In this document: one piece after another, positions 35,571-51,095 of the stretch | Position numbering within the stretch: position 1 is the stretch's first letter | Layout: the number at the start of each line of letters is the position of its first letter | Program-made: the position numbers and the translations under genes | Notes under the pieces: model-generated | The model's input: only the letters and a program-made list of their open reading frames with translations | Told to the model about the DNA's origin: nothing | The model's database searches: none | DNA from: Apibacter raozihei | Lineage (GTDB): Bacteria > Bacteroidota > Bacteroidia > Flavobacteriales > Weeksellaceae | Assembly (NCBI RefSeq): GCF_004014855.1 | Contig: NZ_CP034930.1 | Span: 62,001 to 126,000 of the forward strand | Length of the DNA: 64,000 nucleotides | Reading direction: 5' to 3'

Positions 35571-38500
35571 CTTGCTTTCTTCTCATTATAAATATATCTT
35601 TTTCTTGAAGGACAATCTCAAAATTTTCCCAGCTATGATTTATTTCAGTACGTATTCCTATCAGCCATTCAACTGAATTAGGTATTCCCTTATCTAAAGG
35701 TATTCCCTTATCTGTAAAAATCAGAGTATTGTAAGATTCCCAATTATCCGGAATTTCATTAATGAAGTTAATCGGATACTTTTTTTGTGAATATGAATTT
35801 TCTATAATTTTCCTTTTTAATTCATCATCTTCTACTACTGATATTTTCCATGTTGGCGAACTATACAATAAGAGTAAGTCTAAAACGCACCAGCTATCAG
35901 TATAGTGAAAAGCTTTAACTTCATCAGGCAGATTTTCATAAATCTTTGTATAAAAATTTTTGTACCATTCATATTCTGTTTTAATAGCTTTCTTTATAGA
36001 CGGCCCCTTATATAAATAGTTTAGAAAAAGCTTATTTCTAAAATAATCGGGTGATTCTAATGGAATTTTAAATTTTTTAAATTCACCTCTGAACCATTTC
36101 ATAATATTTTTTGTTCTTTCTGAATAAGAATTTCCAAATGAACAATCCTTATACGATATTTTATCTAAATATCTGACCGTTATGGTGCCTGAATTTACCC
36201 ATGTTTCTTTTTTGGGTAACCTGTCTGAATTTCCATGTATCATCACAGGCTGAATATCCATTTTTAATTTTTCTGCCAGATAAAACGCACCTTTGTGAAA
36301 ACGACGAATTTTAGAATTATCAGAACGGGTTCCTTCAGGAAAAATAATTAAAGAATATCCCTGATGTATTTTTTCTTTTAAATCATTTAAATCTGTATCC
36401 AAATCTTTGCTTGTGGGAAAATATCCTGCGACACGGATAATTTTTCCAAAAAAACGTGAATTATAAATACGTTCATTAATCATAAATATTTGTCTGTAAT
36501 CAAACATTCCCATAATGATGGTATCCAACTCAGAAGAATGGTTAGCTATGATAATAGTAGGCGTATCATACAATTTTTTTGAGAACCCCACAGATTTTAC
36601 ATTTACGCCAGGAAACATGAAAATTAACGTCCTGAAAATAGTTTTAAATATTTTAAATAAAAACGTATTTTTCTTTGTTTTTCTTTCCGGTAATAAGGGG
36701 GAAAATATAAAGGCTGCACTATTGAGCAGTAATGACATTAACAGGAAAAAGCCAAAGCCTAATATCCCTGTAACAAAATTTAATAATCTGAAAGGAGTAT
36801 ACCCTTTTTGTTGTGGTTTTAATAAAAGTACAGAAAATAGCCAGGGTTGTACAGTAAATGATATGAATACTACAACCAGTAACCCTATTAAGGGTATAAT
36901 GGCAATGGATTTAATTGCCGGATGTTTTGCAAAGATAAGGACACCAAAGCAAAGTATGGTGGTTAATGCAGACATGATCACTCCTGATTTATACGTTTTC
37001 ATTTGATTTTCACCGGTTGTATATTCTTCAAGCAAAGCCTGAGATATAAATATTGAGTAGTCTATACCTAAACCGAAAATCAAAGTGGTAATTATAATAT
37101 TAAACGCATTGAACTGTATTCCAAAAATCCCCATAATGCCAAGAGTGACCATCCAGCCAATAAAGATGGGAATATTAGTAAGGAGCGTAATTTCAATACT
37201 TCTGAAATATATAAATACGGCGACAAAAACAACCAGAGTAGATATCCAGAACAAATCATTAAAATCTTGTTCCAGATTACCTAAAATATTTTCCTGTAAA
37301 TTTTTTCTGTCTATAACTAAAACATTTTTATTAGTAGAAGATATTTCTTGAATTAACTTTTGAGAATTATTGTCTTTGATTTTAATCACTGTAGTTATCC
37401 CTGTTATTCCGGACTTGGAAGCAATAAAGTCATCTAAAAACAAATCTTTATACAACTGGTGAGACTCCTTAGACATTGGCTCATAATAAGTATCAAGAAC
37501 ATCATAAAAAGGCTGAAATGTTGTTTCTTTAAATCCTACTTTTTTTCCTTCGAAAATTAATAGTTGTTGTACTAATTTAATCTTGTCCGGACTCCAGAAT
37601 TTTTTCCAGTTTTGAATTCTTTCCTTTTGCTGCTCTTCAGATAGCAATAATCCGCCTATGGAGCTAAAGCTTAGAATTTCTTTTAAATCTTTTTTTTGTT
37701 TCAGTTGTTCATATAATTCATGATTTGTCTGCAAACTATTATCGTAGGTATTTCCATAAGAAACTACATAAATCGATTTTGAGGAGTAATCATTTAATTT
37801 ATTTAAATTATCTTCTGCTAACTGCAAGTTTGCAGGCACATAATTTAGTGAGTTTAAATCATTATTGAATCCTACTTTATTAAAAGTAAAAAGACAAACT
37901 GTAATTACTAAAAAACAAGCCCCAAGCACATATTTATTTTGAGAAAAATCGTAAGCTGATAATCTATCAATAAATGTATTTTGTAATGTCTTTATTCTCT
38001 CCTGTGGTTTATATACCTGAGGTATAAATAGTAAGGCAAACAGAGCTGCTCCTAAAACACTAACAGCCGCAAATATTCCTAAGTCTTTTAATACATCCGA
38101 ATGTAACAGTAAAAGACATAAGAAGTCTACTGCTGTAAATATGGCACACATCAGTAAAGGGCTAACAATATCTTTAAAGAGTTTTTTAATATCTCCGCTA
38201 CTTCTGTAGTGACTGAGAATATGAACAGAATAATCTAAGGTTATTCCTAATAAAACTGAACCTATGCCTATAGAAACTGCCGATATTGTCCCTTTCAGCA
38301 GATAAAGCACAGAAATTCCTAATAAACTACCAAATATTGCCGGAACAAATATGACTATGGGTATATATAGTTTTCTGTAAAAATAAACATAGAGAGTAAG
38401 CAGCAAAATTAAGGCTATGCCCATAGTCAACTGAATATCTTTTTTTATCTGTTGGGCATTGGCTACTGATACTGCCACAGCCCCGTAATATTCTGCTTTG

Positions 38501-39228
38501 GATTTATCCGTATATTTTTTGTTCAGTTTATTTACAATCTCATCCAGCAAATGAATAAATTCTGTATTTTTATCTGTTTCGCTTGCGGGCAACTTAGTAG
38601 TAATAAAAAGTAGCAGATTTTTCTTTTGTTTACTGATAACAAATCCGTCATCTAATTCAAAATTATCCACAACCTGAACTTGCTGTAATTTTTTGATTCC
38701 CAAAAAAAGCATTCCGAGCGGATCCTTCCTTATCATCTGAGTAGTTACAAAACCACCGGGAGATAACAAGGAATGGTAACTTTCATTAATTTTGTTCTGA
38801 ATAGGCTGCGTTGCTATTAATGAATCGAGATATTTGTAGTCTTGTTCATCCAAAAACAAAGGCAGATTTTCCTGAACAAAGTCCATCAACTCACCTATTT
38901 TATCTTCATTAATTCTAGTTTGTAATTTTTGAATATAATCCGCACAACTAATACGGGCTAATGAATCAAAATCTTTGGCGTAAGATTTTAAATCATCCGG
39001 ATGGTCACCTTCAATATTTATAATTAATTTATCTGAAAACCGTGCTGTTTCTAATACATTTTTTATTTCTTCCGATTTTCCATCAGCTGGTAGTAATCTT
39101 GTAATATCTTCTTCAAACTTTATTTTACTAGCAAATAAGATCAAAAGTCCTGTTAAAAGTGCAGTAAGTGAATAAAACAGGCCCTTTCTTTTAGAAAAGA
39201 AATCGTACAGTAAATTAAACATTTTCAA
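35554..39228 (-). CDS. trifunctional MMPL exporter / acyltransferase / methyltransferase-like fusion
   Basis: 1224 aa, three parts. Residues 1-~810: RND/MMPL-type transporter with 12 predicted helices and two periplasmic loops. Residues ~870-1070: PlsC-type acyltransferase with HX4D motif NHSSELD (~896) and FPEGTRS (~964). Residues ~1080-1224: a degenerate class I methyltransferase-like fold without a clear glycine-rich SAM motif. This fusion is known from flexirubin clusters; MMPL/LolA pairs are thought to move the finished lipid pigment to the outer membrane. It lies 57 bp after the GT2 gene in the same operon. Confidence 0.88.
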   Translation of the reverse strand: MKMFNLLYDFFSKRKGLFYSLTALLTGLLILFASKIKFEEDITRLLPADGKSEEIKNVLETARFSDKLIINIEGDHPDDLKSYAKDFDSLARISCADYIQKLQTRINEDKIGELMDFVQENLPLFLDEQDYKYLDSLIATQPIQNKINESYHSLLSPGGFVTTQMIRKDPLGMLFLGIKKLQQVQVVDNFELDDGFVISKQKKNLLLFITTKLPASETDKNTEFIHLLDEIVNKLNKKYTDKSKAEYYGAVAVSVANAQQIKKDIQLTMGIALILLLTLYVYFYRKLYIPIVIFVPAIFGSLLGISVLYLLKGTISAVSIGIGSVLLGITLDYSVHILSHYRSSGDIKKLFKDIVSPLLMCAIFTAVDFLCLLLLHSDVLKDLGIFAAVSVLGAALFALLFIPQVYKPQERIKTLQNTFIDRLSAYDFSQNKYVLGACFLVITVCLFTFNKVGFNNDLNSLNYVPANLQLAEDNLNKLNDYSSKSIYVVSYGNTYDNSLQTNHELYEQLKQKKDLKEILSFSSIGGLLLSEEQQKERIQNWKKFWSPDKIKLVQQLLIFEGKKVGFKETTFQPFYDVLDTYYEPMSKESHQLYKDLFLDDFIASKSGITGITTVIKIKDNNSQKLIQEISSTNKNVLVIDRKNLQENILGNLEQDFNDLFWISTLVVFVAVFIYFRSIEITLLTNIPIFIGWMVTLGIMGIFGIQFNAFNIIITTLIFGLGIDYSIFISQALLEEYTTGENQMKTYKSGVIMSALTTILCFGVLIFAKHPAIKSIAIIPLIGLLVVVFISFTVQPWLFSVLLLKPQQKGYTPFRLLNFVTGILGFGFFLLMSLLLNSAAFIFSPLLPERKTKKNTFLFKIFKTIFRTLIFMFPGVNVKSVGFSKKLYDTPTIIIANHSSELDTIIMGMFDYRQIFMINERIYNSRFFGKIIRVAGYFPTSKDLDTDLNDLKEKIHQGYSLIIFPEGTRSDNSKIRRFHKGAFYLAEKLKMDIQPVMIHGNSDRLPKKETWVNSGTITVRYLDKISYKDCSFGNSYSERTKNIMKWFRGEFKKFKIPLESPDYFRNKLFLNYLYKGPSIKKAIKTEYEWYKNFYTKIYENLPDEVKAFHYTDSWCVLDLLLLYSSPTWKISVVEDDELKRKIIENSYSQKKYPINFINEIPDNWESYNTLIFTDKGIPLDKGIPNSVEWLIGIRTEINHSWENFEIVLQEKDIFIMRRKQDGKKL

Positions 39229-39285
39229 AAAAATTAGTTTTGCAATATAATTTATATTAACGAATTGTACTAACCGTACACTTGT

Positions 39286-40473
39286 TTAGTTATGGGTCTG
39301 TATAAAATTTTCACTTTTTTTATTATCTAATATGAAATATGTAACAACTCCAGCTAAAAAAGAGCAGATAATACTAAAAATGATACTACCAACAATGTAT
39401 TCTAAAATATGATTCCCAGCAGTATTGGAATAAGAATCAAAATCATCCCATTTAAATTCCATTTCTTTATTTCCCAATAAAAAATTACCTGTTGCACATC
39501 CAGCATATACAATAAATGGAATTAAAGGTGGCAGGCTTATATTCGAAAAAGCAAAGGCAATAAACTTATTAAGCCGAAACATAACAGCTAAAAAAATAGC
39601 GGTCACTGCATGAAATCCCCAAAGTGGAGATAGACCTATCAAAATGCCTAAAGCTACCGAAAAAGATTTTTTTAAGGGAGTATCCTGACTATGTAACAAA
39701 TCTTCAAAAAAAAAGCGTTTAAATCCTTTATTCTTAAATTTCCTCAAGTAATCTCTAGGCTTTATATAAAGCAATGATATTATTACTAATACCGTATTAA
39801 GTAAAGATATACGACTAAAATCCATATAGGGTCTGAAATGTGAGACTCTTTCCGTTTCGTCATACAAAACTTTTATGGGAATATTCTTCACTTTAATACC
39901 ACTCCATGAAGCGCGTACAATTATTTCAATTTCAAACTCGTATTTTGAGGTATAGCATTTTATGCTTTTGAGCTTTTTAATAGGGTAAATTCTAAAACCG
40001 GACTGAGTGTCGGATAATTTCACCCCTGTTTCAAACCAGTACCAGAAGTTTGAAATTTTATTACCTGAACTACTACATTTAGGCACTCCTTCCTGATCCA
40101 TGTTTCTTGCGCCTATAAGAAGAGCTTCCCCGTTAGTAAGGATTTCGTTAACAAATGAAGGAATATCATCAGGATAATGCTGCCCATCAGAATCAATTGT
40201 AAACGCAAAATCAAATCCAAGTTCAACTGCTTTGGAAAAACCACTTTTCAGAGCCTCGCCTTTTCCTTTATTAATCGTGTGTTCAATTATTTCTAATCCC
40301 TCATACGATTGAAGTATTTGAGTAGTTAAATCCGTAGAACCATCATTAACTATAATAATATCTTTTGTGTATTGAAGTGTTCCTTCAATGACTCTTGAAA
40401 GTGTATTACAATTATTGTAAGTAGGAATTACAACACATGCATTTATGCTGTGCAGACAGTTGTTGTGTTCCAA
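39286..40473 (-). CDS. GT2 glycosyltransferase fused to DUF2062
   Basis: 395 aa. Residues 10-230 are a GT2 domain: VVIPTYNNCNTLSRVIEG, IVNDGSTD and the DxD motif TIDSDGQH, closest in kind to dolichyl-phosphate mannose synthase type enzymes. Residues ~250-385 are DUF2062 with hydrophobic helices (SFSVALGILIGLSPLWGFHA). The protein is membrane anchored. Such fusions recur in aryl polyene clusters, suggesting glycosylation or lipid-carrier work on the product. Gap to the next upstream gene is 18 bp. Confidence 0.85.
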   Translation of the reverse strand: MEHNNCLHSINACVVIPTYNNCNTLSRVIEGTLQYTKDIIIVNDGSTDLTTQILQSYEGLEIIEHTINKGKGEALKSGFSKAVELGFDFAFTIDSDGQHYPDDIPSFVNEILTNGEALLIGARNMDQEGVPKCSSSGNKISNFWYWFETGVKLSDTQSGFRIYPIKKLKSIKCYTSKYEFEIEIIVRASWSGIKVKNIPIKVLYDETERVSHFRPYMDFSRISLLNTVLVIISLLYIKPRDYLRKFKNKGFKRFFFEDLLHSQDTPLKKSFSVALGILIGLSPLWGFHAVTAIFLAVMFRLNKFIAFAFSNISLPPLIPFIVYAGCATGNFLLGNKEMEFKWDDFDSYSNTAGNHILEYIVGSIIFSIICSFLAGVVTYFILDNKKSENFIQTHN

Positions 40474-40491
40474 GGCATTTAGTTTTAAATT

Positions 40492-40941
40492 TTATTTTAA
40501 GGTTTCCAGCATTTTTTTAAGCTGAGCATCATTCACACTCGTGATTTTTTTCTTTATAAAATCCTTATCTTCATCAATATTTTGATTATAACCGGCAATT
40601 TTAGGTAGATTTTGCTGAATAGTCAAACGTACAAAACGGGCTTCTATATCATTAGGATGAGCTTTAATGTAAGATTCAATCCATGCTCTTCCATTTTTTA
40701 TCTGTCCTTTTTTCTTTAGTAAAGGCTCATATCTTGCCAAAAGCATATACGCAGCTCCTTTGTAAGCCATTAAAACAGTACCGTTAGATTGTTGCACAGA
40801 TTTTAGACTATTAAAAAATGCATCTGCTTTTTCTTCTGAATCTACAGCTGTTCTGTAAGACTCTCGAACTTCTGACACTGAAGGCTGAGCTGAAAGGAAA
40901 AGAGAAAATATTGAAAATAATGTTAATAAATACGTTTTCAT
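40492..40941 (-). CDS. small secreted protein of the flexirubin cluster
   Basis: 149 aa with a signal peptide (MKTYLLTLFSIFSLFLSAQ). The mature part is helical with a tetratricopeptide-like feel (GAAYMLLARYEPLLKKKG, HPNDIEARFVRLTIQQNLPKI). No lipobox. It overlaps the dehydratase gene upstream by 4 bp (ATGA), so it belongs to the same translational unit. Periplasmic location is likely; function is unknown. Confidence 0.75.
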   Translation of the reverse strand: MKTYLLTLFSIFSLFLSAQPSVSEVRESYRTAVDSEEKADAFFNSLKSVQQSNGTVLMAYKGAAYMLLARYEPLLKKKGQIKNGRAWIESYIKAHPNDIEARFVRLTIQQNLPKIAGYNQNIDEDKDFIKKKITSVNDAQLKKMLETLK

Positions 40942-41327
40942 AATTTTTTGTTATAGATTCCACTAAATTTTAAAGCAACAGTTTCTTCAAAATAAGTTAC
41001 GCTTTTTAGTGAAATGTTATTATCTTCTTCCTTAATGTCAAAATCCATTCCAATTTTAGAATTTTCTTCCGGATTGATAATTGCCATAAATTTTATATTC
41101 TCAGCAGTTTGCAATTGTAAAGAGACGTTTAAGTAACCTTCTGTTACTTCTTTTATAATCTGCATCATGCATACACCCGGAGTTACAGGGTGCCCGGGAA
41201 AGTGTCCTTCAAAAATTTTGTGTTCTTTATTCAGACTTATACGTACTGTAAATTTATTTTTTTCAATTTCTGAAAAATGTTCAATTTCATAAAAATTTTC
41301 CAAAAGTGAATTCTTCAGCTCTATCAT
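40938..41327 (-). CDS. FabZ-like hotdog 3-hydroxyacyl-ACP dehydratase (ApeI-like)
   Basis: 129 aa from the ATG at 41325-41327; a longer frame from a TTG at 41348 is less likely. The FabZ signature region reads GHFPGHPVTPGVCMMQ with the catalytic H42 present, but the usual glutamate is Q56. In polyene synthesis the enzyme would dehydrate 3-hydroxyacyl-ACP after each elongation. Overlaps the 149-aa protein gene by 4 bp. The family is clear; the Glu to Gln change raises a question about mechanism. Confidence 0.82.
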   Translation of the reverse strand: MIELKNSLLENFYEIEHFSEIEKNKFTVRISLNKEHKIFEGHFPGHPVTPGVCMMQIIKEVTEGYLNVSLQLQTAENIKFMAIINPEENSKIGMDFDIKEEDNNISLKSVTYFEETVALKFSGIYNKKL

Positions 41328-41392
41328 ACGTTCAAAATATTTCGGCAAATGTAATTATTTTTCAATCATTTTTTCAATCGAAATTTACTATC

Positions 41393-42007
41393 CTAATTCT
41401 CAAGTACTTTTAAATTAATTTGTAACTTAACAGCATTATGCCTTATCTCAACATCCGGAAAATCTGACTTATTATAAACAAAATCTAGGCTTATTTTTGA
41501 TTTTTTCTTTGATGCATAAACTGTTTTCTCTAAATTATCTGATTGTTTTGAAATATAATAGTATACGCTTTTCTTTTCAAGCAATGATTCATATACAGTA
41601 TATTCTTTATATTCATATTGATTTACAACGTTAGTGTTTTGATTTAGTAATAGTAAAAAATCGCGCTTAAATACGTTTAAGATTATTTTTCTATTAAGTT
41701 GTTCTATAGCATAATTTAGTTTTAGCTGTTCCTTTATTAATTCAAAATCGATAAGTTTAGCGCCTATTTCAGTAAGTACTGCTACCCGATAATGTTCTTC
41801 ATTTATTTTTTTTATCGCTAAAATTCCACTGAGATCATGATCGTATATATTAATATTTATTCTAAATACTTTTTCAATGTTTTTATCTGTTAAATAATTA
41901 GGCGTATATGTTTCAACGATTGTATTAACTTTTGTAAATGACTGATTATAAGAACAGCAAGAACCCATTACCAGTAAAAGTAAATAACTAAAAATTAAAT
42001 TTCGCAT
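41393..42007 (-). CDS. lipoprotein of the flexirubin cluster, unknown function
   Basis: 204 aa. MRNLIFSYLLLLVMGSCC has a lipobox ending at C17 or C18. The rest is a mixed alpha/beta protein with no motif I recognise (HDLSGILAIKKINEEHYRVAVLTEIGAK suggests a LolB/DUF3261-like outer membrane lipoprotein shape). Its start overlaps the LolA-like gene by 20 bp, which supports a LolA-LolB-like partnership. That pairing is inference from position. Confidence 0.65.
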   Translation of the reverse strand: MRNLIFSYLLLLVMGSCCSYNQSFTKVNTIVETYTPNYLTDKNIEKVFRININIYDHDLSGILAIKKINEEHYRVAVLTEIGAKLIDFELIKEQLKLNYAIEQLNRKIILNVFKRDFLLLLNQNTNVVNQYEYKEYTVYESLLEKKSVYYYISKQSDNLEKTVYASKKKSKISLDFVYNKSDFPDVEIRHNAVKLQINLKVLEN

Positions 42008-42620
42008 CGGAAATAGTATTATTTTTTTTCTGATTACTAAATGTAATAATTGTATAATCTTCAGTAGGTTCCATAACTTTAATTGTATTTACTAAATACG
42101 TATTTCCGCTAAGACCTATTTCCACCTGTTTTATATATTTTTTAATATTTTTATCTTTTGGAACCATAACTACTTGGTAGTGTTCTAAAACTTTATAATA
42201 ATTTATTTGAAATTTACTTTCATCGAAAATGTTTTTACCTTGTATGGTTCCGGAAATTACCTTACTGAGCTCTTTTAGCATTTCACTTGATGACATATTC
42301 ATTTCTTTTTTTTTGCCATTATCATTTATATGCATTTTGTTATTTTTCAAAATCATATAATAATTATAGGGTGAGGAATATTCCCATCGTACATTTCCTG
42401 ATTTAAAATAAAGTTTCCCTGATGACTTTATGTCTTTTTCCATAAAATCCATATGCTTAACCTGAAAAAAATTAGATTCTAAAGAACTAATTTTTGATGA
42501 ATAATTCTCGACATTAATTTTTAATGCTTTAATTTCTGAAGAGGTCAAAGCTTTTTTCTGCCCTAACATACACGTAGAAATTAATAAAAGAACCACTATT
42601 AGTTTGTTATGATTTCTCAT
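41988..42620 (-). CDS. LolA-like outer-membrane lipoprotein carrier
   Basis: 210 aa with a signal peptide ending CMLGQ. LolA-fold pattern: VENYSSKISSLESNFFQVKHM, then KSSGKLYFKSGNVRWEYSSPYNYYMILKNNKM, typical for the family. Periplasmic carrier for hydrophobic cargo, here presumably the pigment or its lipid form together with the MMPL protein. First gene of the 42620-to-34050 operon, with a promoter candidate just upstream. Confidence 0.85.
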   Translation of the reverse strand: MRNHNKLIVVLLLISTCMLGQKKALTSSEIKALKINVENYSSKISSLESNFFQVKHMDFMEKDIKSSGKLYFKSGNVRWEYSSPYNYYMILKNNKMHINDNGKKKEMNMSSSEMLKELSKVISGTIQGKNIFDESKFQINYYKVLEHYQVVMVPKDKNIKKYIKQVEIGLSGNTYLVNTIKVMEPTEDYTIITFSNQKKNNTISDAKFNF

Positions 42621-42651
42621 GATATAACAATTAAATGAAGTTTAATTTATG

Positions 42652-42680
42652 CAAAAATATGTTTTTAAATTTGATTCAAC
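42652..42680 (-). promoter_or_regulatory. candidate promoter of the lolA-to-oxidoreductase operon
   Basis: Minus strand: TATTTTTG (42652-42659) fits TANNTTTG; GTTG (42677-42680) lies 17 bp upstream as a weak -33. About 32 bp before the LolA-like start, overlapping the 3' end of the HxlR gene. Confidence 0.45.
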
Positions 42681-43044
42681 TTAAATCCTGAGAATTTTGA
42701 ATTTTAATTATAGTTTTTTTCTCTATTAATAATTTCCCCCAATTGTTTAATTGCCAAAGAACTTTAACTAATTCTTCTCCCAGTTCTGTAAGCGTATATT
42801 CAACTCTTGGTGGTAATTCATTAAAGTTTTGTTTTTTTATGAGACCATCTTCCAACATTTCTTTTAACTGCTGATTTAGTACTCTTCTATCCACGTTCAT
42901 AATACCTCTCAAAAATTCACTGGGTCTTTTTTTGCCTTCATTCATCTGCCATAAGATTGGGATTTTCCATTTTCCGCTTATTGTATTTACTGCAAATTCC
43001 AAAGGGCAAACTTTATTTTGTATAGCAGGTGTCTTTTTATTCAT
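42676..43044 (-). CDS. HxlR family transcriptional regulator
   Basis: 122-aa winged-helix protein. CPLEFAVNTISGKWKIPILW is the HxlR signature with the conserved early cysteine (C13), followed by ILxQMNEGKKRPSEFLRGI-like and VEYTLTELGEEL. These regulators often sense thiol-reactive compounds through the cysteine. Divergent from the peroxiredoxin-like gene with a 99-bp gap, its likely target. Not a usual pigment-cluster member. Confidence 0.9.
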   Translation of the reverse strand: MNKKTPAIQNKVCPLEFAVNTISGKWKIPILWQMNEGKKRPSEFLRGIMNVDRRVLNQQLKEMLEDGLIKKQNFNELPPRVEYTLTELGEELVKVLWQLNNWGKLLIEKKTIIKIQNSQDLS

Positions 43045-43143
43045 AATATTGACTTATAAATCCCTAGGGGATAAAAATATGCGTTATTGTGCATCATTTA
43101 ATTTTTTTGAATTTTTGCATTCGTTAGCTAAAAATTCTTACGT

Positions 43144-43785
43144 ATGTCAAAGTTAAAAAAACAATTAGAAAAATTAAATGCAGAACTGGTAAAACAGCTT
43201 CCTAAAGAAATTCAAAATGCATTTCAACGTTCAATTCTTGATTTGAAAGAAAAAAGTCTGGAGTGGAAATTCTTGAAAAAAGGAAAGAAAATTCCTTTTT
43301 TCAATTTAGATTCTACATTAGGCAAACCCATAAATTCTAACAAGATATTTAAAGAATATGACAAGCTTATATTGGTCTTTTTTAGAGGGAGCTGGTGTCC
43401 GTATTGTAATCTTGAATTAAAAGCATTAGATGAGCTTATTCCATTAATAAAAAATAAAAATTCATTGCTTTTGGGTATATCTCCTCAAAATATAAATCAA
43501 AGTCTGGATATTCAAAAAAAACTTCAATTAAGTTTTGACATTTTAATTGACAAAGGAAATGTTTATGCAAGTCTGCTGGGTATTTCATTTTCTGTACAAG
43601 ATTTTGTAATTCCCTATTACAACCAACTGGGTATTTACTTTTCAGATTATAATGAACACTCTTGTAATCTTCTCCCTATTCCTGCAGTTTTTATAATTAA
43701 TAAAAATCATGAAATTATATATTCTTATGTAAATCCTGATTATACGGAAAGGATAAATCCTGAGGATATACTTCTAAATTTATAG
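43144..43785 (+). CDS. AhpC/TSA peroxiredoxin-like protein
   Basis: 213 aa thioredoxin-fold protein. The active region FFRGSWCPYCNLELKAL has a CPYC pair (C85, C88), between peroxiredoxin and thioredoxin types. A helical N-terminal ~45 residues precede it. No signal peptide, so cytoplasmic. One of few plus-strand genes inside the pigment cluster; paired with divergent hxlR, and its stop lies 7 bp from the convergent deacetylase stop. Role: probably peroxide or quinone/electrophile defence, inferred. Confidence 0.85.
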   Translation: MSKLKKQLEKLNAELVKQLPKEIQNAFQRSILDLKEKSLEWKFLKKGKKIPFFNLDSTLGKPINSNKIFKEYDKLILVFFRGSWCPYCNLELKALDELIPLIKNKNSLLLGISPQNINQSLDIQKKLQLSFDILIDKGNVYASLLGISFSVQDFVIPYYNQLGIYFSDYNEHSCNLLPIPAVFIINKNHEIIYSYVNPDYTERINPEDILLNL

Positions 43786-43792
43786 AAGATGG

Positions 43793-44548
43793 CTAACCTT
43801 TTAAATCTGATGTTTCATTTATAGTCACAAATTGGTAACCCAGAGACAAAAAATAGGGAATGATTATTTCCAGAATAGGAATAGTTCGGGAGTGAGAATC
43901 ATGAAGTAAAAGGATACTTCCATTTTTTGTCTTATTTTTTATTTTATCAGTGATTATTTTTATTGGCTGTGATAGGGTATCGTAAGGCCTGACCGACCAT
44001 CCAACAACTGTAAGGTTCATTTTTTTTACAGCGTGAGCCAGATGAGGGGTTGTTATTCCGTAAGGAGGTCGAAAAATAGACTTTTTCTCTCCTGTAATTT
44101 TTGCAATTTCCTCCTGAGTTAGCCTTAATTCTTCTGTCCAGCCTGAGGATAGTTTAAAATCAATATATTGGGAATGAGTATAACTATGATTTGCTATGGC
44201 ATGGCCATCTGCAACAATCGTTTTTGCAATTTCTGGATATAATTTTAAATTTTTGCCTACACAAAAAAAAGTGGCTTTGCAATTGTATTTTTTTAACAAT
44301 TTTAAAACTCTTAAGGTAAAATCCGGATTAGGACCGTCATCAAAAGTAATTGCAATTTCTTTTTTACCATCTGTTTTAAGCTTATGAAATCCTTTGATAA
44401 AAAAATTAGTCTGAATACAGGTTATCCCTATTACAATCAGGCTAATTTCAATTACTAAAAAAAATGCTCCCCACAGAATAGGTATAATTTTTAACCAACA
44501 AGCCAAAAAAGTAAATAAAACCAGAAACAGAGTTATTCCGAATTTCAT
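43793..44548 (-). CDS. NodB-type polysaccharide deacetylase
   Basis: 251 aa. Two N-terminal hydrophobic helices (about 3-20 and 24-45) anchor it. The NodB domain has ITFDDGPNPD (D70, D71), the metal-binding NHSYTHS (H121, H125), RPPYG and the LLLHDSH motif, so the catalytic set is complete. Overlaps the CLF-like gene by 4 bp (ATGA). Polysaccharide deacetylases recur in flexirubin clusters; the substrate there is not known. Confidence 0.88.
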   Translation of the reverse strand: MKFGITLFLVLFTFLACWLKIIPILWGAFFLVIEISLIVIGITCIQTNFFIKGFHKLKTDGKKEIAITFDDGPNPDFTLRVLKLLKKYNCKATFFCVGKNLKLYPEIAKTIVADGHAIANHSYTHSQYIDFKLSSGWTEELRLTQEEIAKITGEKKSIFRPPYGITTPHLAHAVKKMNLTVVGWSVRPYDTLSQPIKIITDKIKNKTKNGSILLLHDSHSRTIPILEIIIPYFLSLGYQFVTINETSDLKG

Positions 44549-45603
44549 TTTTCTAATAATAATAAACTATGATTTTTATTTTCTTTTTGATGATAGATTA
44601 AAATGGTCTTTACCTCATTGACATCTTTCTGATTTAACTTAATTATTTGCGGAATCTGTTGTTTTTTTAATATTTGAGCTGCCATCCAAAATGCAAAAGC
44701 AGATGAAGAATCATTTTCTCCAAAAACATGTTTATACCCTAACTGTAAATTGTTTTTAAACAAAGTTTGCGCTACTTTATTATAACTATTTGTATCCTCT
44801 CTATCTCCATTGTATCCTAACATAACTGCATCAATATCCTCTACTTCGCGTCCGTTTCTATTTAAAAAATCAGAAATAAATTCTGTTATGTTCACAGGAT
44901 TGTAATTTTTTTCAACATCAATAATTTTTGCATAGGTTTTCTCGGTAGGTTTATCTGAAATAATTGAAAATGTTGCTCCTTCTGAATATATGGTCCCCCG
45001 GGTTTGAGATTTTAAAAGCCTGGATAGCTCCTGATCACTTTTTTTTAAAAATCCTGCTTTATCAAAAAACAAACTGAATTTATCTGCATTTTCATCAACA
45101 CTTCCTACTAGAACTGATTGTTCTCCTCTTTCCGAAATATATAGACAAGCATCCAACAATGCAGAATCAAACGAAGTTGTTCCATCTGTATATGTCATGT
45201 TATAATTCTTACAGCCTATGGATAGGGCTACTGCTGCGGCAGCCATATTATGAGTAGATTGAATAAACGGTGTTGGATTTATAGATTGTTCATGATCTTC
45301 CAGCATAGATTCAATAAATTTTTCAGAGTCCCGCTGGCATCCTAAACCCGTACCGGTTATAATAGCATCAGGGTTTTTAACCCCTGCTTCTTCCATAGCT
45401 TTATTAGCTGCATACGACGCCATTTTTATACTTTTTCCCATACGTCTTAATTGCATAGGTGGAATAATTTCTTTGTAGTTGGGTTCTACAGCATTGATCA
45501 TACTTGTATTGGAATAATCATTTATCGGCTCTAAGAAATATCCTTCCTGATATGTCGGCTGAATAGATATACAACCTAAACCATTTATATATATGGGAAT
45601 CAT
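44545..45603 (-). CDS. chain-length-factor-like ketosynthase without active cysteine (ApeC-like)
   Basis: 352 aa, thiolase fold. The N-terminal KS body is recognisable (RRMGKSIKMASYAANKAMEEAG, INPTPFIQSTHNMAAAAVAL), but the nucleophile position, where active paralogues have TACSS, reads TYTDGTTSFDSAL (about residues 137-149), with no cysteine. C-terminal half is short and lacks the His motifs. In aryl polyene systems an active KS pairs with such a chain-length factor. The active partner is probably one of the two KS genes at 47337 or 49422. Confidence 0.83.
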   Translation of the reverse strand: MIPIYINGLGCISIQPTYQEGYFLEPINDYSNTSMINAVEPNYKEIIPPMQLRRMGKSIKMASYAANKAMEEAGVKNPDAIITGTGLGCQRDSEKFIESMLEDHEQSINPTPFIQSTHNMAAAAVALSIGCKNYNMTYTDGTTSFDSALLDACLYISERGEQSVLVGSVDENADKFSLFFDKAGFLKKSDQELSRLLKSQTRGTIYSEGATFSIISDKPTEKTYAKIIDVEKNYNPVNITEFISDFLNRNGREVEDIDAVMLGYNGDREDTNSYNKVAQTLFKNNLQLGYKHVFGENDSSSAFAFWMAAQILKKQQIPQIIKLNQKDVNEVKTILIYHQKENKNHSLLLLEK

Positions 45604-45699
45604 AGCATTCTTTATGTTACAGACTATTTAAAGAACAAAAATACACAAATAAAAAAGATTTAAAACTTATTGAAGAAACTAAAGTCATTCGTTTATCTA

Positions 45700-45737
45700 A
45701 ATAAAAAAGCATAAAAACCTATTCAGGCTTTTATGCT
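45700..45737 (-). terminator. terminator of Cys-rich gene copy 1
   Basis: Stem AGCATAAAAACCT/AGGCTTTTATGCT (45708-45720 with 45725-45737, one A-C mismatch) followed on the minus strand by a T-run (45703-45708). 23 bp after the stop. Confidence 0.85.
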
Positions 45738-45760
45738 CAAAAAAAATATTATACTTTAGC

Positions 45761-46015
45761 TTACGAAGCTACTGTATGCATGCGCGGATACCAAACTGTA
45801 CATAATATACCTTCACTAGCTACTCTAGGGTGTGCACAGTTATTTGTCTGGAATTTTGAACATTTCAGACAATCATCATCAGGATGAGCTACTGCTTTAA
45901 ATTCAAAAGAGTTACATACCTGATTTTCTCCTACTCCAATCTCTTTTACTGAACATAATTGACCTTTCATCAAATGTTCACAATTTCCACAACAGTCTGC
46001 TAACTTTAAATCCAT
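45761..46015 (-). CDS. 84-aa nine-cysteine protein, copy 1
   Basis: Unknown protein. Nine cysteines at 8, 9, 12, 21, 34, 49, 52, 60 and 72, with histidines at 14, 44 and 62: a CCGNC cluster, CLKC pair and spaced single Cys, suggesting bound metal (zinc or iron-sulfur). No signal peptide or membrane helix, so cytoplasmic. It differs from copy 2 at about six positions (G27, N58, R64, V65, M79, H80). Own promoter (46038-46068) and terminator. It sits inside the pigment cluster between the CLF-like and KS genes, but a role there is only positional inference. Confidence 0.85.
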   Translation of the reverse strand: MDLKLADCCGNCEHLMKGQLCSVKEIGVGENQVCNSFEFKAVAHPDDDCLKCSKFQTNNCAHPRVASEGILCTVWYPRMHTVAS

Positions 46016-46037
46016 AATTTTAATTTTTTAACTGAGA

Positions 46038-46068
46038 CAAAATTAGAGATAAAATCAATAAGATCAAT
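46038..46068 (-). promoter_or_regulatory. promoter of Cys-rich gene copy 1
   Basis: Minus strand TAATTTTG (46038-46045) as -7 and ATTG (46065-46068) 19 bp upstream as -33. Leader of about 20 bp before the ATG. This copy has the best -33 box of the three. Confidence 0.7.
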
Positions 46069-46212
46069 TCTAAATAACTCAAAACCACTAATTTGTAATT
46101 AGAATAAATTTAAATAAAATTGGAATACTCTTTAATTTCATAAACATTATATACTATATAGAAGAGTTATAAAACATTCTTTAATTTGCCTATAGCACTA
46201 ATACCAATTGAA

Positions 46213-46250
46213 AATAAAAAAGCATAAAAACCTATATAGGCTTTTATGCT
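46213..46250 (-). terminator. terminator of Cys-rich gene copy 2
   Basis: Same hairpin as copy 1 (arms 46221-46233 and 46238-46250) with loop changes only; T-run on the minus strand. Confidence 0.85.
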
Positions 46251-46273
46251 CAAAAAAAATATTATACTTTAGC

Positions 46274-46528
46274 TTACGAAGCTACTGTATTCGCACGCGG
46301 ATACCAAACTGTACATAATATACCTTCACTTGCTTCTGTAGGGTGTGCACAGTTTTTAGTCTGGAATTTTGAACATTTCAGACAATCATCATCAGGATGA
46401 GCTACTGCTTTAAATTCAAAAGAGTTACATACCTGATTCTCTCCTACAGCAATCTCTTTCACTGAACATAATTGACCTTTCATCAAATGTTCACAATTTC
46501 CACAACAGTCTGCTAACTTTAAATCCAT
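46274..46528 (-). CDS. 84-aa nine-cysteine protein, copy 2
   Basis: Same length and same nine cysteines as copies 1 and 3. Differences from copy 1: A27 for G, K58 for N, T64-E65 for R-V, A79-N80 for M-H. All changes avoid cysteines and most histidines, so the metal-site pattern is under constraint while the tail varies. Codons for the shared residues are almost identical, pointing to recent duplication. Own promoter and terminator. Function unknown. Confidence 0.85.
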   Translation of the reverse strand: MDLKLADCCGNCEHLMKGQLCSVKEIAVGENQVCNSFEFKAVAHPDDDCLKCSKFQTKNCAHPTEASEGILCTVWYPRANTVAS

Positions 46529-46550
46529 AATTTTAATTTTTTAACTGAGA

Positions 46551-46581
46551 CAAAATTAGAGATAAAATCAATAAGATTAAT
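46551..46581 (-). promoter_or_regulatory. promoter of Cys-rich gene copy 2
   Basis: TAATTTTG (46551-46558) with ATTA at the -33 position 19 bp upstream. Same layout as copy 1 with one base change in the -33 box. Confidence 0.62.
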
Positions 46582-46803
46582 TCTAAATAACTCAAAACCA
46601 CTAATTTGTAATTAGAATAAATTTAAATAAAGAAAGCTTTTTTATAGAAACTTCTAAAAATAAGATAAATACTGAAAATTTAACTTTTTACTTTAAATTG
46701 AGTTGATGCTCAATATATAATCTGACACATGTAAGATTATTAAAAATAAAAACATTGATAACTCTACAGATAAGCTTCCTTAAATTATAGCGTTTTTTTA
46801 AAA

Positions 46804-46839
46804 ACAAAAAGCACAAAAGCCAATATTGGCTTTTGTGCT
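46804..46839 (-). terminator. terminator of Cys-rich gene copy 3
   Basis: Perfect 15-nt palindromic arms (46810-46824 with 46825-46839) and T-run on the minus strand. Compared with copies 1 and 2, one pair changes T-A to C-G on both arms and the A-C mismatch becomes G-C. Confidence 0.88.
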
Positions 46840-46862
46840 CAAAAAAAATATTATACTTTAGC

Positions 46863-47117
46863 TTATGAAGCTACTGTATGCATGCGTGGATACCAAACTG
46901 TACACAAGATACCTTCACTGGCTTCTTTTGGGTGTGCACAATTGTTTGTCTGGAATTTTGAACATTTCAGACAATCATCATCAGGATGAGCTACTGCTTT
47001 AAATTCAAAAGAGTTACATACCTGATTTTCTCCTACTCCAATCTCTTTAACTGAACATAACTGACCTTTCATCAAATGTTCACAATTTCCACAACAGTTT
47101 GCTAACTTTAAATCCAT
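46863..47117 (-). CDS. 84-aa nine-cysteine protein, copy 3
   Basis: Same nine cysteines as the other copies. Differs from copy 1 at D7N, R64K and V65E only. It is the first copy downstream of the KS operon (220 bp from its stop) yet has its own promoter at 47140-47170. Flanking DNA is shared with copy 2 over a longer stretch than with copy 1, so copies 2 and 3 probably arose last or were converted. Function unknown. Confidence 0.85.
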   Translation of the reverse strand: MDLKLANCCGNCEHLMKGQLCSVKEIGVGENQVCNSFEFKAVAHPDDDCLKCSKFQTNNCAHPKEASEGILCTVWYPRMHTVAS

Positions 47118-47139
47118 AATTTTAATTTTTTAACTGAGA

Positions 47140-47170
47140 CAAAATTAGAGATAAAATCAATAAGATTAAT
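47140..47170 (-). promoter_or_regulatory. promoter of Cys-rich gene copy 3
   Basis: TAATTTTG (47140-47147) with ATTA 19 bp upstream (47167-47170). Identical to the copy 2 promoter. Confidence 0.62.
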
Positions 47171-47336
47171 TCTAAATAACTCAAAACCACTAATTTGTAA
47201 TTAGAATAAATTTAAATAAAGAAAGCTTTTTTATAGAAACTTCTAAAAATAAGATAAATACGAAAATATCTAAATATTTAGGTTAAATTATTGACTTTAC
47301 AATTACAATAGATGTATTAAAACTAGATTTGTACGC

Positions 47337-48545
47337 TTAATGTCCTGAAATTAACAATGAAGTACAATTTCCACCAAATCCTAATGAATTTGATAAAATA
47401 TGTTGAAGTTTTGCAGACTGTAGCTTCAAACATGGAATAATATCCAATTCTTTTATTTTATTTTCAAAATTCAGATTGGGATATATAATCTGATTTTGTA
47501 AAGCTAAAACAGAAAAAACAGCTTCTATAGCTCCAGCAGCAGCTAATGTATGTCCGGTGAATGCTTTAGTAGAACTAAAAGGAGGTACTTTTTCTTTTCC
47601 TCCGAATATTCTGAGTATGGCTTTCCCTTCCGTTAAATCATTATTAGGAGTAGCTGTTCCATGAACATTAATATAATCAACCTGCTCACTTTTTAGCCCT
47701 GAAGTCTCCAAAGCTTTATTCATGGCTAAGAAAGCTCCTTCACCGTCCTCAGATGATGCAGTTTGATGAAATGCATCATTAGCATTCCCGTACCCTAAAA
47801 TATATGCCAAGGGAACATTTCCTGTTTTTTTTAGTGAAAATTCAGATTCTAATACCAGATAAGCTGCCGCCTCACCTAAATTCAAACCTTTTCTGTTTTC
47901 ATCAAAAGGTTTGCAAAGTTCATCCGAAAAAATCATTAATGAATTGAATCCGTTGAGGGTAAATTTTGAAAGAGCATCAGCTCCACCAACGATTACCCTG
48001 TCCAATTTACCTGAAGCCAACATACGGGCTCCGAGCATTATAGCATTGGCTGCGGATGAACAAGCAGTACTTAGAGTAGTGATAAATCCTGTAATCCCTA
48101 AATAATCCGCCAGTTGTTCTGTATGATATCCGCAATGATGAGTAGGAATATATTTGAGGTGCTCATCAGATATTAAATATTCATTATAATATTTTTCAGA
48201 AGCGTCCATACCTCCTACTGTGGTAGCTGATATGAGTCCGGTCGATATTTGATCAGCAGAACTAATGTTAGCAGATTTGCAAGCTTCCTGAGCGGCCATT
48301 AACGCTAATAGCGAAGTACGGGTAAAGGGTTTCTCGGGTTGTAATCCTAAAAGCGAGTACAACTGTTCGTTAGTATATTTAACCTCTCCTGCCAATAATT
48401 TACCTTGATAATAAGTTTCAAGAAATTGTATGTCTCCGATTCCAGATTTCTCATTTATCAGAGCATTGTAATTCTCCTGAACATTATTTCCTATGGCTGA
48501 AATAATACCGGCTCCTGTAATTGCTATTTTTTTAATCGGTTGCAT
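47337..48545 (-). CDS. beta-ketoacyl-ACP synthase (KAS I/II type), catalytically complete
   Basis: 402 aa condensing enzyme. The Cys-His-His triad is intact: C162 in LSTACSSAANA, His in VHGTATPNNDLTEG and His in AFTGHTLAAAGA. N-terminal ITGAGIISAIGNN and C-terminal NSLGFGGNCTSLL are canonical. Likely elongates the polyene chain, possibly with the CLF-like protein at 44545. It starts one base before the ACP stop codon region, so ACP and KS are directly adjacent in one operon. Confidence 0.93.
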   Translation of the reverse strand: MQPIKKIAITGAGIISAIGNNVQENYNALINEKSGIGDIQFLETYYQGKLLAGEVKYTNEQLYSLLGLQPEKPFTRTSLLALMAAQEACKSANISSADQISTGLISATTVGGMDASEKYYNEYLISDEHLKYIPTHHCGYHTEQLADYLGITGFITTLSTACSSAANAIMLGARMLASGKLDRVIVGGADALSKFTLNGFNSLMIFSDELCKPFDENRKGLNLGEAAAYLVLESEFSLKKTGNVPLAYILGYGNANDAFHQTASSEDGEGAFLAMNKALETSGLKSEQVDYINVHGTATPNNDLTEGKAILRIFGGKEKVPPFSSTKAFTGHTLAAAGAIEAVFSVLALQNQIIYPNLNFENKIKELDIIPCLKLQSAKLQHILSNSLGFGGNCTSLLISGH

Positions 48546-48800
48546 TTATTTTGTCCTGTGCTCTTCGATATAATCAGACATGGTTTGAATAGTATGAAAT
48601 ATCTTACGCCCAGCTTTAGGATCAGCTAATTTAATTCCATACGTTTTATCTAGTAATACAATAAGTTCAAGAGCATCTATAGAATCTAATCCTAATCCGT
48701 CCCCGAACAGAGGTGTATCATCCTGAATATCTTCGGGAGTTATGTCTTCAAGATTTAATTGAGTGATAATTTTATTTTTTAATTCTTCTTTAAGTGTCAT
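48546..48800 (-). CDS. acyl carrier protein (polyene unit)
   Basis: 84-aa acidic ACP. Phosphopantetheine serine S40 in GLGLDSIDALELIV. It carries the growing polyene as a thioester. Overlaps the half-KS gene upstream by 4 bp (ATGA) and abuts the KS gene downstream. The Asp-Ser-Ile form resembles aryl polyene ACPs; the second ACP in the window is at 63192. Confidence 0.93.
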   Translation of the reverse strand: MTLKEELKNKIITQLNLEDITPEDIQDDTPLFGDGLGLDSIDALELIVLLDKTYGIKLADPKAGRKIFHTIQTMSDYIEEHRTK

Positions 48801-49414
48801 AATTTCTGTTTATATAATTCTAAAATTTGCTCTTTACTATGTAAATATTTTCCTTTTTTTTCCACCAGATATAAAAAAATATCAAAACTTTCTTCTGTAA
48901 CTTCAACCCAGCCGCTCAGTATTTTTTCAGCTTTACCAGAGGCTAGTATTTGTTCATTATATTTTGTTAAAAAACCGGCATTAAAGGAGTCAAAGATATA
49001 AAAAATATTTTCACTGTGAAGTTTATGCCTTATGCTAATTTCTCCCATAAGAATATTAGGCAAAGTATATACAAAAACAGAGGGGCTTGCAAGCGGATCC
49101 TCTTCTCTGTAAATCATTTGTGCATGTTTGGAGTCTGAAACTCCACTGGATGAGAAATTTGAAATGATTAGAGGAACATTTTGGCCTGTAATGGGTTGTT
49201 TTTCTACAATAAATTCCGTTGCTAAAAACGAACCTTTACAAAGTAGATCCATTTTATGAAATTTAGGATATTCTAAGGATTGATAACGATACAATTCTTT
49301 AAAAAAATCTGATGTTGAAACAGATTTCTCTACACTAAAACGTATTTCACTATCACATATAACTTTATTATTCCTAATCAGGCAATAGGTACTTATTCGA
49401 TGTGTATTTTCCAT
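48797..49414 (-). CDS. half-ketosynthase-like protein, N-terminal KS domain only
   Basis: 205 aa. The stretch ASPSVFVYTLPNILMGEISI with a following HKLHSENIFYIFDSFNAGFL matches the dimer-interface region of the KS N-terminal half (family Ketoacyl-synt_2 in kind), but the nucleophile position has no cysteine and the whole C-terminal half with both histidines is missing. Not a frameshift remnant: both ends are tightly fitted in the operon (4-bp overlap with ACP, 7-bp gap to the KS upstream). A structural or regulatory partner of a KS is inferred. Confidence 0.65.
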   Translation of the reverse strand: MENTHRISTYCLIRNNKVICDSEIRFSVEKSVSTSDFFKELYRYQSLEYPKFHKMDLLCKGSFLATEFIVEKQPITGQNVPLIISNFSSSGVSDSKHAQMIYREEDPLASPSVFVYTLPNILMGEISIRHKLHSENIFYIFDSFNAGFLTKYNEQILASGKAEKILSGWVEVTEESFDIFLYLVEKKGKYLHSKEQILELYKQKL

Positions 49415-49421
49415 TTCAATA

Positions 49422-50555
49422 CTAGGAATTATATTTTGTAAATAAAGTTGCTATATTACTTCCACCAAAGCCTGAAGCTGTTTTCAGAAAGGATTTTATA
49501 TTTGATTCTGAATTCTCTTTGATAATATTAAGAGCCTGAGAAGTTCCTTGCTGGAAATAACCCATTGATTTAATAAGCATTTGATTATGTAAAGAATGGA
49601 TGCTTAAAATGGTTTCCAGTATTCCGCTAGCCCCCAATGTATGCCCATAGTATCCTTTAAAACTATTTACCGGTATATCTAAAAGGTTTGCTCTTCCAAA
49701 AGCTATTGATTCCATTTCATCATTATACAGGGTTGCTGTTCCATGAGCCGAGATAAATCCAGGATCTGGATTTTCAGAATCTTTAAAAGCCTGTTCGATA
49801 CTTCTGTATAATCCTTCTCCCGTTCTTGAGGGACCCGATATATGATTGGCATCGTTAAAAGATCCTACTCCCTCAATTAAAAAAGCTCCTTCTTTTGGTT
49901 TTTTGCTTAAATATACAGAAGCTACTGCTTCCCCTAAGGTTACGCCGGAACGATCACTATCAAAAGGTCGGCAAGGTTCTGGACTCACTGCCTGGAATGA
50001 AGAAAATCCGGAAAAAATAAATTTGGAAATTTCATCAGCTCCTATCACAATAGCTCTTTCATACTGAGGACTCTGAAGTAAATCTCTGGCTACTGAAATT
50101 GCCAACGAGCCTGATATGCAGGCATTGGAAATAATAACTACGGAATTCCGATGCTTAAAATAATCTTGAATCACCTGACCCATAACTGATAAATACACTC
50201 TCTCTCCCGGAAATTGAGTATTCCTTCCCTGTAATGAAATATTACCTTTGGTGCTGGAAAGAATCAGTAAGGTTTTGTCATCTAAAGGTATTGAATTGCT
50301 TTCGATAAGTGTCTGAATGGAATATATAATTAGATTTTCCAGTCTTGTAAATTTATCTGAATTTTTAATCCTTTTTTTTATTTCAGACACTGTTTCTTCG
50401 TCTATTAAAGAGGAATAAAAAGAAGTCTCATGAATATCCGGACTGTGATGCAATTGAATTCCGGATTCGTTGTGCATAATCCTTGAGAAATTTTCCAGGG
50501 ATGTATTCCCCAACGGGGATATTATGTGATCTCCTGTAATAAAAACGTCTTCCAT
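49422..50555 (-). CDS. beta-ketoacyl-ACP synthase, second catalytically complete KS
   Basis: 377 aa. Triad visible: C146 in ISNACISGSLA, His in ISAHGTATLYNDEMES and His in GYYGHTLGASGI. Divergent N-terminus (VFITGDHIISPLGN) and a shorter body than the KS at 47337; the two are distant paralogues. First gene of the operon 50555 to 47337 (KS, half-KS, ACP, KS). Presumably one KS starts from the aryl primer and the other extends, but which is which is not visible. Confidence 0.9.
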   Translation of the reverse strand: MEDVFITGDHIISPLGNTSLENFSRIMHNESGIQLHHSPDIHETSFYSSLIDEETVSEIKKRIKNSDKFTRLENLIIYSIQTLIESNSIPLDDKTLLILSSTKGNISLQGRNTQFPGERVYLSVMGQVIQDYFKHRNSVVIISNACISGSLAISVARDLLQSPQYERAIVIGADEISKFIFSGFSSFQAVSPEPCRPFDSDRSGVTLGEAVASVYLSKKPKEGAFLIEGVGSFNDANHISGPSRTGEGLYRSIEQAFKDSENPDPGFISAHGTATLYNDEMESIAFGRANLLDIPVNSFKGYYGHTLGASGILETILSIHSLHNQMLIKSMGYFQQGTSQALNIIKENSESNIKSFLKTASGFGGSNIATLFTKYNS

Positions 50556-50572
50556 AAAAATATTTCTATCAG

Positions 50573-50580
50573 CAAATTTA
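50573..50580 (-). promoter_or_regulatory. -7 box upstream of the KS operon
   Basis: Minus strand TAAATTTG, 18 bp before the KS start. No TTTG at the expected -33 place. Confidence 0.38.
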
Positions 50581-50678
50581 CAATTATTGTTTATGATATA
50601 TTTAAATACGATTCCAGATATCAGAAAGGTTTTTGTGGTTTATGTACATACAGATAATTGAATCTGTCTTTCCGGTTT

Positions 50679-51095
50679 TCAACTATTCTCCAAATTATAA
50701 TTCTTTTTCCAATTTTCAAAGAATATCGGATTATTTAGTTGCAGTTCCCCTTGAAGATCTGTAAATACCTGAATGGTCTTACCTGTTGCAATGAGTCCTC
50801 TGTCATGATGTGAAATTATATATTCAAATATTATTTTTGCAGCAGATGTATTTACAAAACGTGTTTCTATATTTACTGTATCTCCGTATTTTAAAGATTG
50901 TTTATAATCGCACTGACAATGAACTACAGGTATAACCACTCCATTTTTTTTGACATCCATATAAGTTATGCCATATTTTTTACCGAAAGATTCTCTTCCT
51001 ATTTCAAAATAAGTAACATAATGTCCGTGCCATACAATGCCTAAAGAATCAACTTCGTTAAATCGTACGGTAAAATTTGTAATATCTTTTAGCAT
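50679..51095 (-). CDS. acyl-ACP/acyl-CoA thioesterase, 4HBT hotdog
   Basis: 138 aa. FTVRFNEVDSLGIVWHGHYVTYFEIGR is the YbgC/FadM-type 4HBT signature with the conserved aspartate and the HGHY/HNxY-like turn. It may release or edit acyl chains in the polyene pathway. Lies 19 bp after the ABC permease gene on the same strand. Confidence 0.88.
   Translation of the reverse strand: MLKDITNFTVRFNEVDSLGIVWHGHYVTYFEIGRESFGKKYGITYMDVKKNGVVIPVVHCQCDYKQSLKYGDTVNIETRFVNTSAAKIIFEYIISHHDRGLIATGKTIQVFTDLQGELQLNNPIFFENWKKNYNLENS

Follow-up and report, generated by a model that had tools for sequence, protein, structure and literature searches.

Organization of the gene triplet

The DNA analyzed here, referred to below as the window, is a stretch of 64,000 nucleotides from the Apibacter raozihei genome, taken from a single contig of 3.29 Mb (bases 62001-126000). 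Its ORF list contains three tandem 84-aa ORFs on the minus strand at 45761..46015 (copy 1), 46274..46528 (copy 2), and 46863..47117 (copy 3), each of which was also supported by genome match and alignment and encodes a protein with eight conserved cysteines plus one additional cysteine. The three copies form a direct repeat family (91% and 94% identity to the reference copy over 300 nt), and the other two proteins are 93% and 96% identical to that of copy 1. All nine cysteines are found at the expected places in the alignment of the three copies, and a search of the whole genome with E values up to 10 detected no copies beyond these three. Thus, the near-identical gene triplet and the nine cysteine positions described in the first-pass annotation of this DNA are real.

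The same annotation had regarded the copies as single-gene units, each with its own terminator and promoter. Hairpin scanning detected one intrinsic-terminator-like hairpin at each copy (45707..45738, 46220..46251, and 46809..46840 for copies 1 to 3, all on the minus strand), that is, three hairpins compared to 0.5 expected from shuffling, and the single-gene organization was borne out. With regard to promoters, only part of the claim held: sigma-70-type promoters show no excess at the triplet (10 seen and 12.3 expected), whereas a TAnnTTTG element of the Bacteroidota type, TAATTTTG, is present in front of each copy, 30-23 nt upstream of the ATG. This putative -7 element is located at 46038..46045 (copy 1), 46551..46558 (copy 2), and 47140..47147 (copy 3) on the minus strand, the latter two by sequence reading, and no -33 TTG was found by reading at the usual distance from it in the three copies. 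TAnnTTTG is given as the -7 consensus of F. psychrophilum sigma-A in an excerpt of PMC9723704.

Seven codons differ in their amino acid among the copies, and a further 12 codons vary silently. The earlier impression that the amino-acid changes avoid the cysteines does not call for a special explanation, as the probability that none of seven variable codons hits a cysteine is 0.44. It had also been proposed that the changes fall in the tail. Codons 57-84 are indeed richer in changes, but silent sites behave likewise (9 of the 12 silent-variable codons lie there, binomial p 0.004), and residues 7 and 27 are changed as well. Since the silent differences also cluster in the last third, the pattern among the copies reflects, at least partly, regional homogenization, which has shaped the 5' part of the copies; the 100 nt upstream are near-identical in all three. 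The evidence that points to a constraint on the cysteines is that between species, where eight of the nine are fixed.

Distribution and cysteine spacing of the family

By profile search, the gene was detected in 27 of 395 genomes of the order (17 of the 297 good genomes), and 26 of the 27 positive genomes have one copy each, the window genome with its three being the exception. In draws from the class and the phylum, both of which include the window genome itself, the gene is carried by 6/395 genomes (two at E 0.008) and 4/296 genomes (one at E 0.003), respectively; the family is rarer in these draws than in the order. Named carriers include Apibacter adventoris, A. muscae, and A. mensalis, Moheibacter lacus and M. 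sediminis, and three metagenome bins. No copy was seen in three of the other eight Apibacter genomes that were searched, these being drafts of 83-97% completeness. Phage cargo and plasmid cargo were both considered and rejected: phage records gave no match and viral contigs no relative, and homologues were found in two plasmid records alone, both of them large plasmids of Persicobacteraceae, one of which is annotated and lists the product as 'hypothetical protein'.

The products are about 76-84 aa in length, have no signal peptide by eye, and share the layout C-x2-C-x8-C-x12-C-x14-C-x2-C-x7-C-x11-C-x2-W with near-invariant spacing. This eight-cysteine layout is kept across the order even where identity falls to 26-38%. 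In an alignment of 24 members, the invariant columns are M1, the cysteines at 9, 12, 21, 34, 49, 52, 60, and 72, V28, and W75. The spacing was further compared in 32 sequences, 11 from the alignment of Apibacter and Moheibacter members and 21 from fetched loci, the latter picked by a pattern that already requires the first cysteines and leaves out the decayed L055/L031. The cysteine gaps are identical throughout in 30 of these 32 sequences and one residue shorter in a single gap in the other two, and all 32 have the tryptophan after the last cysteine. A cysteine before the first core cysteine (Cys8) is present in only 11 of the 32, namely the members of the Apibacter/Moheibacter alignment, and it appears to be a local extra outside the conserved eight.

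The fetched loci come from 20 of the 24 positive order genomes outside Apibacter, retrieved with their flanks, and two loci (L079 and L080) were added from the wider taxonomic draw. The promoter and spacing sets do not include the decayed L055 or the members in G140, G245, G260, and G269, whose proteins, encoded in short loci, also retain the eight cysteines. The plasmid homologues keep all eight as well and have Tyr in place of W75. A decayed family member was observed at L055:8973-9197 (L031), in which one core cysteine is lost and an in-frame TAG is present.

Genomic context and the flexirubin-type cluster

The first-pass annotation had placed the triplet inside a flexirubin-type cluster. 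This cluster is genuine: it contains a LolA2_flexi match of 198.4 bits (cut-off 125), and ketosynthase-like proteins and a carrier protein are located nearby. A search of the other eight Apibacter genomes gave no match to the 352-aa ketosynthase-like protein (cluster region 34050-51095 of the window), suggesting that the cluster was either gained here or lost in the others. We also observed, at 42676-43785 of the window, a divergent gene pair for a MarR-family redox-type regulator (RrpB) and a peroxiredoxin-like protein, both below the cut-off.

A functional link between the small protein and the pigment had also been suggested on the basis of position. Among 40 genomes, the small gene is present in seven (G000, G002, G003, G004, G007, G008, and G017) and the 352-aa ketosynthase-like protein of the cluster also in seven (G000, G012, G016, G017, G020, G024, and G026). 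Only two of the 12 genomes having either gene have both, that is, the window genome (G000) and G017, and in the latter the small gene (1.55 Mb) and the ketosynthase gene (0.67 Mb) are about 0.88 Mb apart on the same contig. Thirty-two loci were fetched for neighborhood analysis, 31 of them with a family gene (one decayed) and one (L078) without. Compared with 16 cluster proteins at E 1e-10, two of their 595 ORFs gave a match, one a glycosyltransferase (28%) and the other a ketosynthase (30%) about 8 kb from the family gene, and neither adjoins the gene. A conserved neighborhood with pigment genes was not found, and the homologues are scattered with no tie to pigment clusters, the outcome that the first-pass annotation had itself named as refuting the link: the relatives are single-copy, lie elsewhere, and mostly occur in genomes that have no pigment ketosynthase. 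The pigment link was rejected on these grounds. As read from the neighbor lists, no conserved neighbor exists across the family, and synteny is confined to subgroups.

In all five other Apibacter carriers (L010-L013 and L081), the gene adjoins a Nudix-type gene (MutT-like, below the cut-off), which in turn comes after an mnmC2 gene. The window genome has Nudix-type and mnmC2-like neighbors at 1.667 Mb, and the small gene is missing there, with 115 nt between the Nudix-type gene and the next gene (L078:8169-8283, G000:C1 near 1.668 Mb). As the old site is empty and the triplet lies in the cluster, the gene was either moved, or lost there and regained, and was triplicated. It looks as if the position of the triplet inside the pigment cluster is incidental.

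Fur-type boxes upstream of the family genes

Riemerella anatipestifer belongs, as does Apibacter, to the Weeksellaceae. Its Fur box was predicted from 11 sites as 5'-ATTTAGAATTATTCTAAAT-3', with band shifts for four promoters, in PMC5609570; a different Fur box is stated for this species in PMC7976709. We built a symmetric matrix (PWM) from the 11 sites in Table 5 of PMC5609570, which are independent of the family studied here. Two Fur-type boxes were found upstream of each window copy, all on the minus strand. Box 1 of copy 1, ATTTAAATTTATTCTAATT, lies at 46097..46115 (16.8 bits, 100-82 nt before the ATG), and box 2, ATTTAGAATTGATCTTATT, at 46057..46075 (11.0 bits, 60-42 nt before the ATG), 40 bp from box 1. 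In copy 2, box 1 is at 46610..46628 (16.8 bits) and box 2, ATTTAGAATTAATCTTATT, at 46570..46588 (15.9 bits), and in copy 3 the two boxes are at 47199..47217 (16.8 bits) and 47159..47177 (15.9 bits). In the window copies, 11 nt separate the end of box 2 from the putative -7 element, and a repressor bound there could block the polymerase. The box pattern has 11 matches in the window, nine of them at the triplet, compared to 4.3 expected for the window as a whole; of the seven sites with 13 bits or more, five belong to the triplet and the remaining two fall within other ORFs.

A long, conserved upstream block that resembles the R. anatipestifer box is common to the window copies and eight close relatives, and similar upstream sequence is present in more distant members with unrelated neighborhoods; the first-pass annotation had not noted this shared element. 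In 25 of 32 members, the best upstream site exceeds its own dinucleotide shuffles at p<0.05, and in 24 of 32 it lies above the 95th percentile of 383 control regions, taken upstream of other ORFs (150 aa or more) in the fetched loci (Mann-Whitney p 1e-16, uncorrected for relatedness); because the members are related, the 32 promoters are not independent tests. L063 was counted in both sets with N replaced by A. The shuffle test was not significant for the remaining seven members (L046 and L048 narrowly, and L051, L052, L056, L064, and L080). The best boxes of the two Cytophagales homologues score 9.6 bits (L150) and 4.8 bits (L151).

A distance of exactly 40 bp separates the two top-scoring sites in 11 of the 32 members, among them the three window copies and L063. 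When the two sites were scored jointly at 40 bp (n=29, with copies 1 and 2 and L063 dropped), 18 of the 29 members scored above the 99th percentile of 382 controls, and the same number scored above the 95th percentile of 208 AT-rich controls. By family mean, 40 bp is the third-best spacing, 10 and 16 bp being higher and 10 bp also being the best in controls; the fourth, 34 bp, is what 40 bp becomes when box 1 is read in a second, overlapping register shifted by 6 bp.

Three Fur-family genes, one strong and two weaker, score above the cut-off in the window genome. Boxes with 0-1 mismatch give 14 matches at 13 places in this genome. Five of these places lie in front of genes connected with the use of iron or heme or with Fe-S regulation: ccoS, sdhC, genes for a TonB receptor and an Rrf2 regulator, and a TonB receptor/CobN-type chelatase pair, which has two boxes. 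The other eight are not beside an obvious iron gene; some are inside ORFs or in terminator-like repeats, and one lies between a cytochrome-c-like ORF and another gene. The two boxes of the pair are located at G000:C1:1816136-1816176 (L113, L122), between the TonB receptor and CobN-type chelatase genes, which apparently form a heme or cobalamin uptake unit. Loose boxes with up to 2 mismatches show no genome-wide enrichment (91, compared to 154 in the reversed control).

A longer element was also searched for in 196 genomes and was matched in six, compared to none for the control. The six matches comprise three family promoters, one site in front of a small ORF with a CDGSH-like motif, and two sites that show no iron gene. 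The window genome has no match to this longer, stricter pattern. The small ORF (L146:1317-1451, minus strand) comes from a genome in another family of the Flavobacteriales; its CDGSH-like motif and its start were assigned by eye, and with this start it has no Pfam match. A similar element lies before what appears by eye to be a short ORF near position 1501 of L149, from a genome of the Apibacter family (genus g33).

The box ATTTAGAATTATTCTAAAT precedes HmuR and other genes in the R. anatipestifer Fur regulon and resembles the boxes of our family, whereas none of the 11 genes listed in PMC5609570 is named as a cysteine-rich protein of this sort; two are called only 'hypothetical protein' there, and the distinction is one of names. 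From these in silico results, with the exceptions noted above, we infer that the family is probably Fur-repressed and induced by iron starvation.

Comparison with known protein families

No match at the cut-off was obtained in Pfam or NCBIfam for the window proteins or for 24 members scanned singly, the lowest E value being 0.0077 (EHMT1-2_CRR, 1/24), and profile and single-sequence searches against PDB sequences gave chance matches or none. Therefore, the first-pass view that the proteins belong to no recognized family stands, and the family appears to be unnamed in Pfam and NCBIfam. Among the papers listed in a literature search, titles and abstract openings revealed no cysteine-rich iron-regulated flavobacterial protein. 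An AlphaFold2 model from 11 close sequences had a pLDDT of 36.5, too poor for a fold search, and comparison of the two protein halves by hhalign was marginal (E 0.011, probability 1.7%).

The HiPIP profile matched neither the window proteins nor the members scanned. HPIP_like (PF18524) hit 1 of 24 members at E 8.6, below the cut-off, and has no match in the window genome. The first half of the family proteins resembles DUF1540 (PF07561), whose pattern is C..NC....G.C....V.....C.SF, whereas the family has two halves and its best DUF1540 match, E 0.36, is below the cut-off (matches in 4/9 members in one scan and 2/24 in another).

Among known systems, the HiPIP-fold accessory subunits of glycyl radical enzymes (HPAD gamma, BSS beta/gamma, and MASS beta/gamma) are comparable in their small size and in the CX2CXnCXnC motif, which occurs twice per protein in all 32 family sequences. 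According to an excerpt of PMC12358834, the HPAD small subunit is a 9.5-kDa protein with two [4Fe-4S] clusters, and the HiPIP-type ligands of MASS beta are Cys32, 35, 51, and 86, with gaps wider than those of our family. The family differs from these subunits in its tighter, near-invariant spacing and in the varied places of its genes, and no significant sequence match was found between them. Bfd, a [2Fe-2S] protein with four cysteines whose gene is under Fur control, is also small, but its cysteine pattern is different, and the Bfd-like Pfam domain is absent among the profile matches of the window proteins and members. Bfd, the ferredoxin that releases bacterioferritin iron, is described in PMC7760384 as being needed for the use of stored iron.

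Discussion

The explanation that we consider best, with a probability of about 50%, is that the three copies may be stand-alone, Fur-repressed iron-starvation genes, and that their product could be a carrier with two metal sites, most likely two [4Fe-4S] clusters, acting in the low-iron response. When iron is present, Fur would repress each copy, and when iron is short the copies would be switched on. The product would be cytoplasmic, with two consecutive four-cysteine sites, C-x2-C-x8-C-x12-C (site 1) and C-x2-C-x7-C-x11-C-x2-W (site 2). HiPIPs end with C-x-x-W at the fourth ligand, and in zinc knuckles or ribbons each site is usually built from two CxxC/CxxH pairs. The HiPIP-like layout, together with this usual arrangement of zinc sites, favors Fe-S over zinc, and two [4Fe-4S] clusters would be the likeliest cargo. 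The earlier idea of a metal or Fe-S type cysteine protein is thus plausible and survives in a sharper form. Analogy with Bfd faintly suggests that the likeliest job may be the carrying of electrons or iron in the low-iron response. It is odd for an Fe-S protein to be made when iron is short; Bfd would nevertheless be a precedent. In A. raozihei, the ancestral single copy has disappeared from its old place, and three copies with boxes and terminators now lie inside the flexirubin-type cluster; with the extra copies, more of the protein would be made when iron runs short. The family, its cysteine spacing, the operator-like boxes, the changed place, and the triplication are observations, and Fur binding, the metal, and the function are deduced from them.

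It is tentatively proposed that these genes represent an undescribed ferredoxin family of the Flavobacteriales that is controlled by Fur, carries two HiPIP-like [4Fe-4S] sites in tandem, and serves in iron scarcity. Its tripling in one Apibacter, together with the operator, would then be an adaptation to iron limitation. Such a ferredoxin might mobilize ferritin iron or feed electrons to iron-sparing enzymes.

Several other explanations have to be weighed. The genes could be under the same iron-starvation regulation while the eight cysteines form sites for two structural zinc ions in a small adaptor that binds protein or nucleic acid and has no redox role. Zinc sites would place no demand on scarce iron, and several of the weak profile matches are to zinc-binding families (E values: Prok-RING_2 0.011, FYVE_2 0.11, Zn_clus 0.5, and zf-FCS 0.16); however, these matches are weak and vary from member to member, the lowest E value noted above belongs to another cysteine-rich model (EHMT1-2_CRR), and a single CxxC plus two isolated cysteines make up each site in the HiPIP-like manner. 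We regard such an adaptor as possible but somewhat doubtful. It is unlikely that the boxes serve another Fur-family regulator, Zur or PerR, which would place the protein in zinc or peroxide homeostasis. Fur, Zur, and PerR boxes are alike, and the best NCBIfam matches of the two further Fur-family proteins in this genome are to Zur, below the cut-off. On the other side, the near-exact boxes in the window genome include those at the TonB-receptor and chelatase genes, and the targets from which the box model was built are those of Fur, four of the promoters having band shifts (PMC5609570).

A metallothionein-like metal store with dosage raised by triplication would suit a triplicated, cysteine-rich gene, but we think it quite improbable. 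Metallothioneins have a very high cysteine content with CxC motifs, whereas these proteins have nine cysteines in 84 residues (11%), no CxC, near-rigid spacing, and a conserved tryptophan, and the gene is single-copy in nearly all positive genomes of the order. Least credible is the original proposal of a redox partner or metal carrier for the flexirubin enzymes: its support is the position within a genuine flexirubin-type cluster, and against it stand the co-occurrence and neighborhood counts given above and an ancestral position elsewhere.

For a family with no Pfam or NCBIfam name, assignment to iron starvation provides a testable proposal that supplants the position-based pigment guess. 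The relocated gene in an unrelated biosynthetic cluster is a case that would mislead neighborhood-based annotation. If the two [4Fe-4S] clusters prove true, the family would represent a flavobacterial iron-starvation Fe-S protein unlike Bfd, tripled in one Apibacter.
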